DNA of 27,610 bases from a virus. The stretch lies in the IMG/VR virus record IMGVR_UViG_3300030060_004025, positions 1-27,610 of that record. One strand, written 5' to 3'. The notes beneath the pieces are model-generated. The model searched no databases, was not told the origin of the DNA, and saw nothing but the letters and a program-made list of their open reading frames with translations. Below are positions 3,741 to 15,336 of this stretch, in pieces. The number at the start of each line of letters is the position of its first letter. The first letter of the stretch is position 1. A program made the translations under genes and the position numbers.

Positions 3741-4755
3741 CTTCTTGAAAACTATTATTAAAAACTCTGGAAACGAGTATGCAGGAATCGCATCCGATGG
3801 AATCGACGGAAGTGATGTAACTGGTTTCATTGACACTGGATCGTATGCGTTCAACGCACTTCTCTCTGGATCTATGCATGGAGGAATACCAAACAATAAA
3901 ATCATGGCACTTGCAGGTGAGTCTGCTACAGGTAAGACTTACTTCGCATTGAGTATGTGTAAGAAGTTTCTTGATGACAACCCAGATGGTGTTATTCTCT
4001 ACTTCGACACTGAGCAAGCGATTACTTCTGACATGATCAAGGAGCGAGGAATGGATCCTGCAAGGGTAGCAATCTTCCCAGTTGCTACCGTCGAAACATT
4101 CCGTCACCAAGCAATTAGTATCGTTGACAAGTACATCGAAACGAAGGACAGTAAGCCTGTGTTTGTTGTTCTCGACTCTCTTGGTATGCTTTCAACTGAG
4201 AAAGAAATGAATGATACAGCAGAGGGTAAGTCAACCCGCGACATGACACGCGCCCAAGTTATCAAAGCAACATTCCGTGTGCTTACTCTCAAGTTGGGTA
4301 AGGCTGGTATTCCTCTTATCATGACAAACCACACCTATGATGTTGTTGGTGCTTATGTTCCCATGAAAGAGATGGGTGGTGGTTCTGGTTTGAAGTATGC
4401 CGCTTCTACAATTGTGTATCTTTCAAAGAAGAAGGACAAGGATGGAACTGACATCATTGGTAATATCATTCGATGTAAGTTGTTCAAAGGAAGATTCACC
4501 AAAGAAAACAAAGAGGTTGAAGTTCAACTAAACTATGACACCGGACTCAATCCTTACTATGGACTGGTTCCTCTTGCTATCAAATATGATATCTTCAAGA
4601 AGGTGTCCACCCGAATTGAATTACCAGACGGGAAGACTGCTTTCGAGAAATCAATTAACAACGATCCGGAGAAGTATTTCACCGATGAGGTTATGGAACA
4701 ACTAGAAGATGCGGTTGCAAAGGAATTTAAGTATGGAAAAGAAACCACCGACTAA
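3733..4755 (+). CDS. uvsX: UvsX-like RecA-family recombinase
   Basis: ATP-dependent strand-exchange protein that would coat ssDNA and drive recombination-dependent replication, as UvsX does in T4. In the 340-residue protein: Walker A GESATGKT at 62-69, a catalytic acidic stretch FDTEQ at 91-95, Walker B VFVVLDSL at 143-150, and a loop region from TNHTYDVVG to the Gly-rich MGGGSG (198-219) that fits the DNA-binding L2 loop. The ATG at 3733 is chosen over 3694 because GGAG lies at 3720-3723. Its 3' end overlaps the glycosyltransferase start (4733), so an accessory gene has been placed directly behind it. Confidence 0.92.
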
Positions 4756-6745
4756 AAAATTATTTTGGAACTTGCAACGAGGGGGACTGGCTAATTGTTT
4801 CTATTCGTTAGAACTCGCAATTGGTTTTGCAAAACTAACCAATAGAGAACTTTACATACATGATAAAGGTGGGTGGGCTTCTTTGAACATTGCTTCAGGG
4901 TTAGGAGGCATACAAGATCGTGAAACAACCATTCTGGATTTGTTCGATCTACCAGTTGACGTAAAGATTAGCGATGATGAAATGATTAACTCGTTGGAGG
5001 GATCAACTTATCTTTATGATAAACCTATCTCTAACTCTGCTATGGGTGTTGGGGGCAAAGAGTCCGTGGGAAATAAAATACCATATGATTTTTTCACAAG
5101 GACAGTTGATTCCAAGGATTCAGATAACTCAATCATCAAGGACAACTTCTCTGAAAATTATCTAGTAGGATTTAGAAAAGTAGATGGTAAGATCGTTGGA
5201 GACGGGGATCAACACGCCTATCAGGATGCGTTGTCATACAGAAACAGATTCTTTTATGGAGACACTGAGGAACTTTTCGGTTTTCTTGATCAAATCAAAC
5301 CGAAGAAGGAATATCAAGAACTAGCAGACAAGATATCGAGTGATCTGGGGAGATACAATTCTGTCCACTTCCGTGTCGGTGATTGGAGTCACTTTTTGTC
5401 GAACGGATCCACAGATTCCAGCAGAGCAGAGGATCTCCTTGACACGATAGAAAAGTACGGAATCGACAGAGAAAAAATAGTGATGTGTAGTAACATGACT
5501 CGAAATGATAATTATCTCCTTTCTATTATCAAAGATAGGTTTCCCAACCTTATTAATTTGGAACAACATATAACAGTAAATTATCAAGACGATATTAACA
5601 AACTGAGTAAATACACTCCAAATATATTGGCTCTTATATCACTTATTGTGACATCTCAATCCATAGACTTCTGGGGTTGTTTTGGAAGCACCTTTACTTC
5701 TTTGATCAATAGACAAAAGACAAATAGGGATCCGTCATACAAACCAAAGTACCACGACATGAAAAATTGGAGTTGGTTCACAAATAGATCTCTTCCCTTA
5801 GACAATGAGGGAGGAATATTAAATAATAGGATTGGTAACTTCTCTTGGAACGGTACTTTTATTGAAGAAAAAGCCTCTTGGGTTGTTGAGTTTCCTACGC
5901 TACACTCTATAAAACCTCCGAAGGGAAAACCAACCAAAGTTCCAAAGATTATTCATCAACAAGGTCCAGCAGACAAAAATAAATGGCATCCAGCATGGGA
6001 GCATTGTCAACAGACTTGGAAAAACATCTTCCCCGATTATGAGTATAAGTTGTGGACAGATGAAGATCTCCATGATCTAGTGAAGAGTGACTTTCCAGAG
6101 TACTTAGAAATGTACGAGGGGTATCATCTAAACATTTGTAGGATAGATATAGCACGACCTATGATACTCTATAAGTATGGTGGAATATACGCTGATTTGG
6201 ATGTTTTATGTAATAGAGATTTCTACGATCAACTACCAGAGGGGGTGAGCATTGTTGAGTCCTCCCACCATCATGAGATATTCCAAAACTCAATGATGAT
6301 GTCTGATCCGGGAAATGAAATTTGGATTGACTTGTTAAACCATTGTTATGAGGAAATGATGTACAGTCCAAAGAATGATGAGTTGCTATCCCTTTTAAGA
6401 TTTGAACGGGGGGAGGCAGATGATTATATTTACAATCATGAAGAAGTTGAAAATCCACAAGATATGATAAGTATGAGGGTTAGACAATTGACAGGTCCAA
6501 TCTCACTCTCCGTGTTAGATAATAAAATAACAAAACTTCCTCATGAACAGTGGAACCCCAATCACGGAAGTCCAAATTGGTTTAGTGAGGATGTTTATGC
6601 TAAACATGTTCAAACCGGAAAGTGGGCAGACAATAGTGATATGAGTGACAAGACAGTAGAGGATATCTACGAAGGAGAAAAACGGGCATATTTCCCAGTT
6701 ATAGAAAGTAAAAAAAAGAACAAAGGAGTTTCCAATGAAGTATGA
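4733..6745 (+). CDS. Two-domain glycosyltransferase: fucosyltransferase-like N-half plus GT32-type DXD C-half
   Basis: A 670-residue protein with two apparent transferase domains. The N-half (about 1-390) begins with [17 protein letters not shown] (13-29), like the GGLGNQ-type nucleotide-sugar loop, then has HFRVGD at 212-217, matching the H-x-R-x-G-D motif of alpha-1,2/O-fucosyltransferases, and [13 protein letters not shown] at 315-327, like their third motif. The C-half starts at [10 protein letters not shown] (403-412) and carries [21 protein letters not shown] (470-490), with D488-x-D490 the metal/nucleotide-sugar site of the GT32 (Gly_transf_sug) family. It probably modifies cell-surface glycans, phage DNA or virion protein; the acceptor cannot be read from sequence. 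The start at 4733 overlaps uvsX by 23 bases, with AAGGAA just upstream. Non-replicative gene set inside the replication cluster. Confidence 0.78.
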
Positions 6746-9512: not shown

Positions 9513-10457
9513 ATGTCAGATATTTCGTTATGGATGTGGGTGGGGTTTCTCCTCGCCGCTTACAGTGTAATTGCAAACGATTCGATCCAAACACTTGGAA
9601 CTTGGATTGCGAGTAACAAAAAAGTAAATTGGAAGATCATGTGGGGCTTTGCAGGCTCCGTTCTTCTTTTCGCAATCTGGTATGGTTGGTATGCCTACGA
9701 TGGTAGTATCTCATACGGTAGACTAAACAAGATTCCGTTTGAGGGGGTGGAGTGGTATCAAGCACTCGCACCCGCTGTTCTTCTACTGCTCACCAGATTC
9801 GGTATTCCTGTATCAACCTCATTCTTGGTTCTTTCTGCGTTCGCGTCCACGGTGGTGCTAGAGAAAGTTCTAATGAAGTCCATGATGGGTTACTGTGTTG
9901 CGGGTGTCGCCGCTTATGTGATTTGGATTGCACTCACTCGTCTTCTCGACGAAGGCAAACCAATCAAAGAGTCAAACAAAATGAAATGGAGAGTCGCACA
10001 GTGGGTGACAACTGCATTCCTCTGGTGGACTTGGTTGTCTCACGACATGGCAAACATCGCTGTATTCCTGCCTCGACAACTTTCCGTGGATGTGATGATT
10101 ATCATCTCCGTTGTATTTGTCGGGGGACTTGGTTGGATGCTGCAACACCGTGGCGGTAAGATTCAAGAGATTGTTCTTGAAAAGAAAAATACTAAATATG
10201 TTCGTTCTGCAACCTTGATTGATTTGTTCTACTTTGTTATTCTATACATCTTCAAGGAAATGAATGACATTCCGATGTCCACCACTTGGGTGTTCGTTGG
10301 ACTCCTCACTGGACGAGAACTTGCAATTGCATCTTTCCGACACAAGGATAGTGTCAAGAAGGTGTTCCCAATGGTAAGCAAAGACTTCCTGAAGTTGATG
10401 GTTGGACTTGCCGCTTCACTACTAATCGTACTCATTGTTCAATATGCGAAAGGTTAA
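9513..10457 (+). CDS. PiT-type inorganic phosphate transporter-like inner-membrane protein
   Basis: A 314-residue polytopic membrane protein with roughly eight to ten hydrophobic segments. It shows both inverted halves of the PiT (Pho4, PF01384) signature: first half VIANDSIQTLGT at 19-30 with GIPVSTS at 97-103; second half SHDMANIAVFLP at 176-187 with DIPMSTT at 252-258. In PiT proteins the two ND/HD segments and the two P-x-S-T-[TS] loops form the phosphate and cation site. It would import phosphate across the inner membrane by H+ or Na+ symport. It is shorter than typical PiT (about 420-500), with a small central loop (148-162). AAGGAA precedes the ATG. It sits between primase and thyX. 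Caution: substrate is inferred from family; distant members may carry other anions. Confidence 0.7.
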   Translation: MSDISLWMWVGFLLAAYSVIANDSIQTLGTWIASNKKVNWKIMWGFAGSVLLFAIWYGWYAYDGSISYGRLNKIPFEGVEWYQALAPAVLLLLTRFGIPVSTSFLVLSAFASTVVLEKVLMKSMMGYCVAGVAAYVIWIALTRLLDEGKPIKESNKMKWRVAQWVTTAFLWWTWLSHDMANIAVFLPRQLSVDVMIIISVVFVGGLGWMLQHRGGKIQEIVLEKKNTKYVRSATLIDLFYFVILYIFKEMNDIPMSTTWVFVGLLTGRELAIASFRHKDSVKKVFPMVSKDFLKLMVGLAASLLIVLIVQYAKG

Positions 10458-11267: not shown

Positions 11268-13235
11268 ATGCAGGAAGAGCGAACCGGACTACCTAGTCTG
11301 TATCAGGATTTTATTCATCTCTCAAGATATTCTAGGTGGATTGATGATCAAGGAAAGCGAGAATCGTGGGAAGAAACAGTCACACGTTACTTTGACTTTT
11401 TCGTTGATCATCTTAAAGAAAATAACAACTACACTGTAAGCAAGAAAGAAAGAGACGAACTAGAAAAGGCAGTTATAAATCTAGAGATTATGCCATCCAT
11501 GCGGGCGTTGATGACTGCGGGTGAGGCACTCAAGAGAGACAACATCGCCGGTTACAACTGTTCTTTCTCCAGTGCAGGTAGAGTTCGTTCCTTTGATGAA
11601 ATTCTTTACACTCTTATGTGTGGAACTGGTGTAGGGTTCAGTGTAGAGAGAGACTTCTTAGGTAAACTTGCAACCATATCAGAGGAGTTTGAGGACAGTG
11701 ATACTACGATTGTTGTCCAAGATAGTAAGATGGGTTGGGCGAAAGCCTACAGGGAACTTACCTCCCTTCTTATTGCAGGTCAAATTCCAAAGTGGGATCT
11801 TAGTAAAGTTAGACCTGCGGGAGCAAGACTCAAGACTTTCGGAGGTCGTGCTTCTGGACCAGAACCACTGGATGATCTATTCCGGTTCACGGTGGAAACA
11901 TATAAAAAGGCTTCTGGGAGAAAACTCACTTCCATCGAATGTCACGATATCATCTGTAAAATTGCTGAGATTGTCGTCGTTGGGGGAGTACGAAGAAGTG
12001 CCCTTATCTCACTCTCTTCGCTTACCGACGAGAGGATGCGTGATGCGAAGCACGGTCAGTGGTGGATTTCCGATCCGCAAAGAGCGTTGTCGAACAACTC
12101 AGTTGCATACAAAGAAAAACCAGAGGTAGGAACTTTCATGGAAGAATGGCTTTCTCTTTACAAGAGTAAGTCGGGTGAGCGTGGTATCTTTAATCGTGAT
12201 GCTGCAATACGTCAAATTGATAGAGCAAATTCCTATAGGGAATCTATGGGTGGTGATTATAGACTTCGTGAAACCAACCACGACTTCGGAACAAATCCAT
12301 GCAGTGAAATCATTCTAAGAGATAGAGAGTTCTGCAATCTCACAGAAATTGTTGTTCGTAGAGATGACACTCAGGAGGATTTAGAAAGAAAGGTAAGACT
12401 TGCCACAATTCTAGGAACTTGGCAGTCCACTCTTACTAACTTTAAGTATCTTTCTAGTGAGTGGGCTAAGAATTGCGAAGACGAAAGACTTCTTGGTGTT
12501 TCCATGACTGGTATCATGGACAATCCATTGACAAACGGATCTAAGAAGGATCTTGAAACAAGACTGGAATCACTCAAGAATATTTCTATCAAGGAAAACA
12601 AGAAGCAGGCTGATAAGATTGGTATCAATTCTTCGGTTGCAATCACTTGTGTCAAACCATCCGGAACAGTTTCACAACTTGTTGATGCTGCCTCCGGTAT
12701 TCATGCTCGTCACAATGAATATTACATCCGCACCGTTCGTGCAGACAATAAGGATCCGATTTGTCAGTTTATGAAGGACAAGGGATTCCCGCATGAAGCA
12801 GATGTAATGAAACCAGAACACGTTACTGTTTTCTCTTTCCCGATGAAGTCACCGAAGGGTGCGGTTTGTAGGAAAGATATGACAGCAATCGAACAGTTAG
12901 AGTTGTGGTTGGTATATCAGAAGTATTGGTGCGAACACAAACCATCCATTACCATCACAGTAAAAGAAGATGAATGGTTTGAGGTTGGTGCATGGGTATA
13001 TTCTAACTTCAATGAGGTATGTGGGGTATCATTCCTACCATTTTCTGATCACAGTTATAAGCAAGCACCATATCAAGACTGCACCGAAGAGATCTATAAA
13101 GAGGCACTCAAGAAGATGCCTACCGATATAGACTGGAGCGATCTTAGTAAATATGAAGAGGAAGATAACACATCAGGTACGCAAACTCTTGCCTGTAGTG
13201 GAAACACATGTGAGATCGTAGATCTAACCGGCTGA
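11268..13235 (+). CDS. nrdJ: Adenosylcobalamin-dependent class II ribonucleotide reductase, monomeric type
   Basis: Reduces ribonucleotides (probably triphosphates, as the Lactobacillus RTPR type) to deoxyribonucleotides with a B12-generated thiyl radical, needing no oxygen or second subunit. Seen in 655 residues: first redox Cys in GYNCSFSS (C98), NPCSE at 343-347 with the thiyl Cys C345, Asn and Glu of the active site, the partner Cys in REFCNLTE (C356), CVKPSGT at 461-467, and a C-terminal C643-x4-C648 pair (LACSGNTCEI) spaced as in RTPR. The enzyme is shorter than the 739-residue RTPR. GGAG precedes ATG. It supplies dNTPs beside thyX and dut; it implies the host has cobalamin. Confidence 0.93.
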   Translation: MQEERTGLPSLYQDFIHLSRYSRWIDDQGKRESWEETVTRYFDFFVDHLKENNNYTVSKKERDELEKAVINLEIMPSMRALMTAGEALKRDNIAGYNCSFSSAGRVRSFDEILYTLMCGTGVGFSVERDFLGKLATISEEFEDSDTTIVVQDSKMGWAKAYRELTSLLIAGQIPKWDLSKVRPAGARLKTFGGRASGPEPLDDLFRFTVETYKKASGRKLTSIECHDIICKIAEIVVVGGVRRSALISLSSLTDERMRDAKHGQWWISDPQRALSNNSVAYKEKPEVGTFMEEWLSLYKSKSGERGIFNRDAAIRQIDRANSYRESMGGDYRLRETNHDFGTNPCSEIILRDREFCNLTEIVVRRDDTQEDLERKVRLATILGTWQSTLTNFKYLSSEWAKNCEDERLLGVSMTGIMDNPLTNGSKKDLETRLESLKNISIKENKKQADKIGINSSVAITCVKPSGTVSQLVDAASGIHARHNEYYIRTVRADNKDPICQFMKDKGFPHEADVMKPEHVTVFSFPMKSPKGAVCRKDMTAIEQLELWLVYQKYWCEHKPSITITVKEDEWFEVGAWVYSNFNEVCGVSFLPFSDHSYKQAPYQDCTEEIYKEALKKMPTDIDWSDLSKYEEEDNTSGTQTLACSGNTCEIVDLTG

Positions 13236-13315: not shown

Positions 13316-13343
13316 AGGGGGCGGAGTGCCCCCTAAATTTTTC
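13316..13343 (+). terminator. Rho-independent hairpin, nrdJ terminator or leader attenuator
   Basis: AGGGGGC (13316-13322) pairs perfectly with GCCCCCT (13328-13334) around a 5-base loop, followed by AAATTTTTC. It lies after nrdJ but also after the TATAAT box and 25 bases before the 68-residue gene, so it can end nrdJ transcripts or act in the leader of the porin transcript. Confidence 0.7.
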
Positions 13344-13368: not shown

Positions 13369-13575
13369 ATGAGTGGAACCAAAGCAAATTGCAAGACTGA
13401 GTGTCCTGCAACCGAAACCTGTGAGAAGGATTTCGTTCGATGTACGTTATGTAAGATTGGGGTTACTCGTTCTACCCTAATCAGTCTAGCCCTAGTACCA
13501 TTCGCGTGGGATGGTGTTGTATGGTTCAAGGATGCCATTCAGTGGGCGTGGGATACTGTAAGCGGCCTCGGCTGA
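13369..13575 (+). CDS. Small Cys-rich single-pass membrane protein
   Basis: Unrecognised 68-residue protein. The N-terminal half carries five cysteines at 8, 12, 18, 25 and 28 (C-x3-C-x5-C-x6-C-x2-C), which could bind metal or form disulfides; the C-terminal half is one hydrophobic stretch, VTRSTLISLALVPFAWDGVVWF (31-53), then an aromatic tail. There is no export signal, so the Cys part is probably cytoplasmic. A strong site, AAAGGAG, precedes the ATG. The porin ATG follows 22 bases after its stop, making the two a likely operon. It may be a partner or regulator of the porin, but this is only context. Confidence 0.6.
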   Translation: MSGTKANCKTECPATETCEKDFVRCTLCKIGVTRSTLISLALVPFAWDGVVWFKDAIQWAWDTVSGLG

Positions 13576-13597: not shown

Positions 13598-14680
13598 ATG
13601 AACAATTTTAAGTCAAAGTGGTTTAAGTACGGTATTCTCATTGCAGTCAGTTTAGCATTTGGTGTCGCAGTTGACGCTGCATCAGCCGATGAAAACTGGA
13701 TGGAAGAAGAACGTCGCGTTCAGACAAAACTTCTCGTAAATGAAGTTCTTGCTGATGCAAACAGCAGAGTTAGTCTTGGTGCAGTAGACTCACCAATTAC
13801 TCTGGATGTCAACGGGTTTGTACAGACTCGTTTCATTTATAACAGTGGTGGAAGTGTAGAGGCAAATCACGGATTCGACATCCCTCGCGCCCGCCTAGAA
13901 TTCTCCGGTAAAGTATACGACTTTGATTACAGAGTCAGCGGAGAGTGGAGTGACGGTGGTAATTTCGATCTTAAGGACGCATGGGGTTCTACTGATCTAG
14001 CCGGTGTAAACTTCAAGTTTGGACAGTTCAAGAGTCCTTTCATGAAGTCCGAGTTAGTCAGTGCTTCTAATCTTCTTGCAGTTGATCGTTCACTTGTCAC
14101 CTATACATTTGGACAGGGACGCTCGCAGGGTATCCAGTTCGGTAAGGACTTTGGAGATCTCCGTCTACGAGCCTCGTATAATGATGGTTTCAACAGTGCG
14201 AATGGTGCCGGTGTACAGAACGGCTACGCTCTTAACGCAAGAGCAGATTATGATGTAACTGATTGGATGACTGTTGGTGGTGCAATTTCATGGAATGATC
14301 TTGACACTACTGACTTCTGGACTTATACGATTGATACCGGACTTGTGTTCGGTGGATTTAATCTCGACGCTTCATATGTCGGGAGAAATCAAGATGCAGG
14401 GAACGACTGGGCTACCCAGTTCCAAGCATCTTACTTTGTCACAGACGAGGTACAACCTTTTGCTCGTTACGAGTACGGTTCTCTTCCCGGTGAGGAAGAT
14501 CTGAGTCTTGTCACCGCAGGTTTCAATTATCACTTTAATGATAATGTTAAGTGGACTACTGATGTAGGTTATTCGCTTAACGGTATCGGTGTAGGTTGGG
14601 ACACTGCAAACACTGGCTGGAATTCCAGCACCGACAGTGGTGAGTACCTCATCCGTACTCAGATTCAAGTTCGTTTCTGA
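13598..14680 (+). CDS. Outer-membrane porin, OprO/OprP phosphate-selective type
   Basis: 360-residue beta-barrel porin resembling the Porin_O_P (PF07396) family. A classical Sec signal peptide is visible: basic start, hydrophobic YGILIAVSLAFGVAV (11-25) and cleavage after ASA at 28-30. A short helical segment (34-57, EEERRVQTKLLVNEVLADANSR) precedes the barrel, whose alternating-hydrophobicity strands begin near 67 (ITLDVNGFVQTRFIYN). GQFKSPF (142-148) and LAVDRSLV (160-167) match the family core. It ends IQVRF, with the terminal Phe used for outer-membrane insertion. OprO/P members pass phosphate or polyphosphate; the pore lysines cannot be assigned by eye. GGAG precedes ATG. The resemblance to planctomycetal porins, which also start with an EVLADA(D/N)-type helix, is from memory. 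It is flanked by its own promoter-like box and terminator. Confidence 0.85.
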   Translation: MNNFKSKWFKYGILIAVSLAFGVAVDAASADENWMEEERRVQTKLLVNEVLADANSRVSLGAVDSPITLDVNGFVQTRFIYNSGGSVEANHGFDIPRARLEFSGKVYDFDYRVSGEWSDGGNFDLKDAWGSTDLAGVNFKFGQFKSPFMKSELVSASNLLAVDRSLVTYTFGQGRSQGIQFGKDFGDLRLRASYNDGFNSANGAGVQNGYALNARADYDVTDWMTVGGAISWNDLDTTDFWTYTIDTGLVFGGFNLDASYVGRNQDAGNDWATQFQASYFVTDEVQPFARYEYGSLPGEEDLSLVTAGFNYHFNDNVKWTTDVGYSLNGIGVGWDTANTGWNSSTDSGEYLIRTQIQVRF

Positions 14681-14706
14681 TTTAAATTAAACTCGAATTT
14701 GTATCG

Positions 14707-14739
14707 AAAACAACCTTCCTTCGGGAAGGTTGTTTTTTA
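14707..14739 (+). terminator. Strong Rho-independent terminator after the porin
   Basis: CAACCTTCC (14711-14719) and GGAAGGTTG (14724-14732) form a perfect stem closed by a TTCG tetraloop, with four A before and six T after (14733-14738). It isolates the porin cassette from the RuvC-like gene. Confidence 0.95.
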
Positions 14740-14772: not shown

Positions 14773-15336
14773 ATGATAATAGCAGGTATTGATTATTCCA
14801 TGACAAGCCCAAGTATATGTGTTTACGCTTCAAAGAAGTCGGAGAGTTTCTCTTTCAAGAAATGTAAGTTATACTTTTTAACAGATACAAAAAAGTACAG
14901 CGGAACATTTAAGAACGTGATTGGGAGAAGTTTCAATGAATGGAATGAAGACACAGAAAGATTCAAGAGTATATCTGACTGGGCGATAGAAACTCTGGCA
15001 TACGTTGAGCAAGTTGCCATAGAAGGTTACTCATACAACTCTACGGGTAAAGTTTTTCACATAGCGGAGAACACAGGTATTCTCAAGTATAAGTTATATG
15101 AAGACGGAACTCCATATGAAATATACTCACCCTCCAGTATTAAGAAGTTTGCTACAGGAAAGGGTAACGCGGACAAAGAACTAATGTATAAATGTTTTGT
15201 GGAGGACACAAAGGTAGATCTAATGAAACTGTTAGATTGTAAGCAAACAAAAGTAGGAAACCCCGTGAGTGATATCGTGGACTCTTACTATGTTTGTAAA
15301 AAATTATATTCAGACTACAAGACTAGATCTTCTTGA
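14773..15336 (+). CDS. RuvC-like Holliday-junction resolvase/nuclease
   Basis: 187-residue RNase H-fold nuclease. Seen: strand 1 AGIDYSMTSPSICVY (4-18) with the first catalytic Asp D7; a second strand VAIEGYSYNS (81-90) with E84; helix FHIAENTGILKYKL (95-108); basic KGNADKELM (130-138); and the C-terminal DIVDSYYVCKKL (167-178) with D167/D170 as the last metal ligands. This matches phage RuvC-like resolvases. It probably cuts branched DNA before packaging, doing the job of gp49 (endonuclease VII) in T4. AGGAGG at 14760-14765 is well spaced. Its 3' end overlaps the convergent lipoprotein gene by 14 bases. Confidence 0.85.
   Translation: MIIAGIDYSMTSPSICVYASKKSESFSFKKCKLYFLTDTKKYSGTFKNVIGRSFNEWNEDTERFKSISDWAIETLAYVEQVAIEGYSYNSTGKVFHIAENTGILKYKLYEDGTPYEIYSPSSIKKFATGKGNADKELMYKCFVEDTKVDLMKLLDCKQTKVGNPVSDIVDSYYVCKKLYSDYKTRSS

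Follow-up and report, generated by a model that had tools for sequence, protein, structure and literature searches.

A porin of planctomycete type in a recurrent gene slot of marine T4-like phages

Why would a marine T4-like phage carry a gene for an outer-membrane porin, from which bacteria did the gene come, and what does it say about the cells that the phage infects? These questions are raised by one open reading frame in the IMG/VR virus record IMGVR_UViG_3300030060_004025, a stretch of 27,610 nt (27.6 kb) that is called the window here.

The porin gene and its genomic setting

The window covers part of a larger T4-like genome; relatives reach 157 kb. All four markers used to recognize a T4-like phage were found in its T4-type replication module: a gp43-like family B polymerase and UvsX (both assigned by profile), a gp41-like/DnaB-like helicase (by similarity) and a primase (recognized from its neighbourhood and sequence alone). 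The window also encodes ThyX, a class II ribonucleotide reductase (RNR) and a RuvC-like resolvase (Table 1). The polymerase was at most 53% identical to those of annotated phages, with cyanophages nearest, and no tRNAs were found in the window or in the porin loci scanned. The 678-aa product of positions 4709-6745 combines a region weakly resembling fucosyltransferases with a DXD glycosyltransferase (PF04488).

Table 1 Features of the window around the porin gene
Feature	Position	Strand	Remark
PiT-like inner-membrane phosphate permease	9513..10457	+	optional porin partner
Class II (B12-dependent) RNR	11268..13235	+	left border of porin slot
Terminator-like hairpin with T tail	13316..13339	+	between RNR and o68
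o68, cysteine-rich ORF of 68 aa with a single hydrophobic stretch	13369..13575	+	directly 5' of porin
Porin gene of Phycisphaerales type (PF07396, 360 aa)	13598..14680	+	
Predicted signal peptide region, aa 1 to ~30	13598..13687	+	inferred from sequence; MNNFKSKWFKYGILIAVSLAFGVAVDAASA
N-terminal helix, aa 33-58, with VLADANSR motif common to Phycisphaerales porins	13694..13771	+	
Predicted 16-strand beta-barrel, aa 67-360, last residue Phe360	13796..14677	+	AlphaFold2
Terminator-like hairpin, strong (-19.8 kcal/mol, z -5.1)	14706..14738	+	directly 3' of porin
RuvC-like resolvase	14773..15336	+	right border of porin slot

The porin ORF begins with ATG, has an AAGGAG box immediately upstream and scored 34.9 bits against Pfam PF07396 (Porin_O_P, phosphate-selective porin O and P), above the curated cut-off of 20.9. 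AlphaFold2, supplied with an alignment of 40 viral homologues, gave a model with a mean pLDDT of 85, in which short helices at residues 150-171 lie in an inward constriction loop and residues 8-21, in the signal peptide region, form a low-confidence helix. The solved structures nearest to the model were OprP (Z 28.6) and OprO (Z 28.4) of Pseudomonas aeruginosa, with other porins at 25.1 or below. Both resemble the viral protein in Pfam family and in having a 16-strand barrel, but they share only 19-20% identity with it in the structural alignment, and a PDB search with the porin sequence profile returned no porin match. The viral barrel is also strongly acidic by comparison, with 20 K/R and 37 D/E residues; its net charge of -17 would argue against strong anion or phosphate selectivity, and a specificity for phosphate is therefore unsupported. 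As regards the arginine ladder and basic central site of OprP-like phosphate-specific porins, the viral porin has some conserved K/R residues (R78, R99, K140, K145, R164, R175 and R215). A terminal Phe is usual for outer-membrane barrels folded by the BAM machinery, and Phe360 may be read as such a signal.

A viral porin family in a recurrent slot

A scan of IMG/VR returned 106 relatives of the porin; the best 80 were taken further. Viral homologues with 41-88% identity number in the dozens and occupy a gene slot that recurs, which indicates that the porin is not there by chance. This slot, consisting of RNR, a small ORF and the porin, is shared by dozens of marine T4-like contigs with conserved synteny. 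An RNR lay just upstream of the porin in 54 of the 60 loci with enough sequence, o68 immediately preceded it in 57 of the 79 viral porin loci able to show this, and RuvC followed within 6 kb in half of the loci (15/30). Profile searches with o68 gave no family match. The porin was sited elsewhere in a few contigs (L058, L059, L069, L072-L074), in some of them beside apparent structural genes. Searches of annotated phage records retrieved none with the porin or the PiT-like permease, and when collections of phages and plasmids were searched with the porin, no viral match emerged, only weak matches, most of them proteobacterial.

The slot also varies in content. The RNR is of a different type in L053, L057, L064, L078, L084 and L090, being 28-30% identical as opposed to the usual 70-90%. 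A secreted trypsin-like protein recurs 3' of the porin in 36 loci (for example, L099 3922-4737), and a glutamine synthetase-like gene (PF00120, 58 bits) is present in the porin-bearing phages L087 (3128-4201) and L086. The porin does not qualify as a core gene of the lineage, since relatives such as L345, L351, L352, L354 and L363 lack it; in the porin-less relatives inspected, a trypsin-like protein occupies the slot instead (L345 17341-18105, L354 13399-14154). A third arrangement, seen at L020 7091-7861 and L044 6712-7482 and in similar form in L022-L027, has a weakly porin-like protein of ~256 aa between o68 and PiT, where it takes the place of the full porin of other members. The short protein of L044 scored 18.5 bits against PF07396, below the cut-off.

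Cellular relatives of the viral porins

The original prediction was that the porin resembles those of planctomycetes, and the motifs that it had singled out (NEVLADANSR, GQFKSPFMKSELVSASNLLAVDRSLV and RSQGIQF) are all present in the ORF. This resemblance is strongly supported by scores, trees and shared motifs, which narrow it to a single order. An earlier contig scan with viral porins as the only query had detected no cellular relative, its patterns being too viral. We then have the result from 84,980 species genomes, scanned with a query that also included gamma- and alphaproteobacterial porins and was thus biased against a planctomycete outcome: Planctomycetota ranked first despite this. 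The top match, from Phycisphaerales bacterium OFTM399 (L129), was full length, 35% identical and located on a 379-kb contig; it was followed by a run of planctomycete MAGs, with other phyla giving mostly partial matches at E values of 1e-10 or weaker.

A profile of 40 viral porins was also run over evenly drawn genomes of four phyla. The best score was 267 bits in Planctomycetota (392 genomes; the G378 copy), compared to 75 bits in Pseudomonadota (398 genomes), 65 bits in Verrucomicrobiota (195 genomes) and 45 bits in Bacteroidota (247 genomes), so that the best matches fell neither in Proteobacteria nor in another of the sampled phyla. Every match above 102 bits in this sample came from the order of OFTM399. 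Within that order the porin profile matched 141 of 146 and 146 of 151 sampled genomes. In the planctomycete genomes searched with this profile no phage copy was seen, the 267-bit match being cellular. Tandem arrays of PF07396-type porins were observed in planctomycete genomes (L131, L137, L142 and contig C50 of G006).

The careful tree united 15 viral with 33 Phycisphaerales-type porins in one clade (support 100/100) that excluded other phyla, and constraining the viral sequences to group with Pseudomonadota was 120 log units worse and rejected (p 9e-82). Within this group the viral porins formed a single clade (support 100/98) on a substantial stem. The viral clade was nested within the cellular porins in a quick tree and sister to them in the careful tree; an arrangement that nests it with seven porins of cells, most of which have genomes of 1.8-2.6 Mb, improved on the free tree by 3.95 log units, a difference that is not significant (p-AU 0.605).

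Motifs agree with the trees. The helix motif (V/I)(L/I)xD(A/S)(D/E/N/S)(S/T/A)R was present in 42 of 83 Phycisphaerales-type and 35 of 62 viral porins, compared to 1 of 88 other porins, and (R/W)(S/T)QG in 17, 62 and 0 of these same sets, respectively. Like the viral proteins, the PF07396 porins of Phycisphaerales combine a VLADAD(S/T)R helix with a barrel and a C-terminal GW...RTQxQ..F signature. They differ in being longer (412-505 aa for the copies shown, against ~315-400 aa) and in occurring several per genome, often in tandem, whereas viral loci have one each.

Probable present hosts and function

A single viral clade on a substantial stem implies one acquisition of the gene, in an ancestor, followed by inheritance. 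A porin that entered the lineage once and long ago marks the host of that ancestor, or the donor lineage, and not the present host. Accordingly, where the original prediction took a host-like porin to suggest a planctomycete phage, kinship bears it out for the donor lineage; for the phage's present host, one old acquisition makes it a matter of likelihood. We consider it somewhat probable that the host belongs to Planctomycetota, with marine Phycisphaerales or their kin as the most likely present hosts. Two further observations are weakly compatible with this: in L063 (10787-11380) a Dockerin_1 domain (26 bits) occurs in a 197-aa protein encoded near the porin, dockerins being frequent in planctomycetes, and a phage-type PiT is found on a true chromosomal contig (with rpoB and rpoC, by sequence) of the order of OFTM399. 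A dockerin-like motif was also noted in a phage protein near the porin of L075 (7440-9311).

The alternative that survives best, which we regard as possible but rather unlikely, accepts the Phycisphaerales origin of the porin and places the present hosts in another phylum, after one ancestral pick-up or a move from phage to phage; a general porin would work in any diderm. The separate stem of the viral clade fits such a history, and the cyanophage affinity of the polymerase (53%), the lack of a phage copy of the porin in the planctomycete genomes searched and the lack of the porin in some relatives count against a planctomycete host. PiT is likewise common to other phage lineages, some members of which also encode a BMP-type binding protein, a kind known from SAR11 phages or cells. 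Tetranucleotide usage fails to separate the hosts: the best correlations of the window were weak (r = 0.44 for Phycisphaerales, 0.40 for Verrucomicrobiota, 0.35 for Bacteroidota and 0.26 for Pseudomonadota), and other members rank differently. It does not, however, speak against planctomycetes; the Dockerin_1 protein beside the porin fits a planctomycete cell, and the helix and C-terminal signatures are still common to viral and cellular porins after long divergence.

The permease bears more on function than on host. The PiT-like ORF scored 26.1 bits against PF01384, under the curated cut-off of 33.7, and may work as a permease judging from two conserved stretches with invariant ND/HD motifs (ANDSxQTLG and SHDMANIAV); its structure model was useless (pLDDT 37). 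A full porin accompanied PiT in 6 of 28 PiT records, and of 31 porin records, mostly fragments, no more than 4 also had PiT; in further PiT records, a short weakly porin-like protein lies just before PiT. This pairing suggests an uptake route across two membranes. PiT proteins with 67-72% identity occur in L028-L046, phages without most other genes of the lineage, indicating that PiT moves between phage groups. As a host marker PiT was rejected: a single genome matched among 151 from the Phycisphaerales order and none among 249 from Pseudomonadota, and PiT is present in other phage lineages.

The likely function of the phage porin is to increase nutrient uptake during infection. In the explanation that we favour, a marine T4-like ancestor would have taken the porin once from a Phycisphaerales bacterium or from near kin of that porin lineage, with the clade retaining it in the recurrent slot. 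During infection the porin would be made from an o68-porin unit flanked by two terminators, exported by Sec and inserted by the BAM machinery of the host. There it would raise the permeability of the outer membrane, letting small nutrients (phosphate or organic solutes) reach the virus-making cell, and in some members, including the window, the phage PiT could move phosphate on across the inner membrane. Taken as a whole, from a Phycisphaerales-derived porin kept in its slot to enhanced uptake in hosts that are likely Phycisphaerales or kin, we judge this account to be fairly probable. The rarity of PiT in porin records and the relatives that do without the porin weigh against its functional part.

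The main functional alternative is that the porin alters the surface of the infected cell and so blocks adsorption of competing phages, as has been described for porins of some lambdoid phages and prophages. Phages commonly use porins as receptors, the acidic barrel shows no sign of phosphate selectivity, and the slot can hold a shorter, weakly porin-like protein instead. Against this, the neighbourhood of replication and nucleotide genes and the optional pairing with PiT favour nutrition, and lasting exclusion would presumably benefit a lytic T4-like phage less than it does a prophage; we therefore view surface exclusion as improbable. That the porin is instead of proteobacterial type, with its planctomycete likeness a chance recall of common PF07396 motifs, is refuted within the genomes sampled, since GQFKxPF-like motifs are indeed widespread in PF07396 but neither the gap in profile scores nor the rejected grouping of virus and Pseudomonadota leaves it any appreciable probability.

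Host inference from gene kinship has a precedent in marine viruses with GlnK-AmtB-OmpL porin modules (PMC8115048), which likewise have a viral porin beside a nutrient transporter. That porin is of Bacteroidetes type and linked to ammonium transport, in contrast to the planctomycete-type porin described here, which has PiT as a partner in some members. Phage-ZRK32, from a deep-sea planctomycete, is reported to have a 21.9-kb genome and a chronic mode of infection (PMC10945688), unlike the window, which is a piece of a larger T4-like genome. The literature covered, which left most subscription journals and preprints outside, contained no description of phages with a planctomycete-type porin.

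Planctomycetes are common in the sea and few of their phages are known. With the closest cellular relatives of its porin confined to one planctomycete order, the clade may consist of viruses of a phylum with almost no known phages. Whether it is the first large group of marine planctomycete phages, a widespread lytic T4-like clade that infects pelagic Phycisphaerales and adds a phage porin and sometimes PiT, we consider evenly balanced. A host-type marker on many syntenic contigs makes the host of this large uncultured T4-like clade directly testable, and outer-membrane porins of a further phylum join the nutrient-uptake genes of marine phages.
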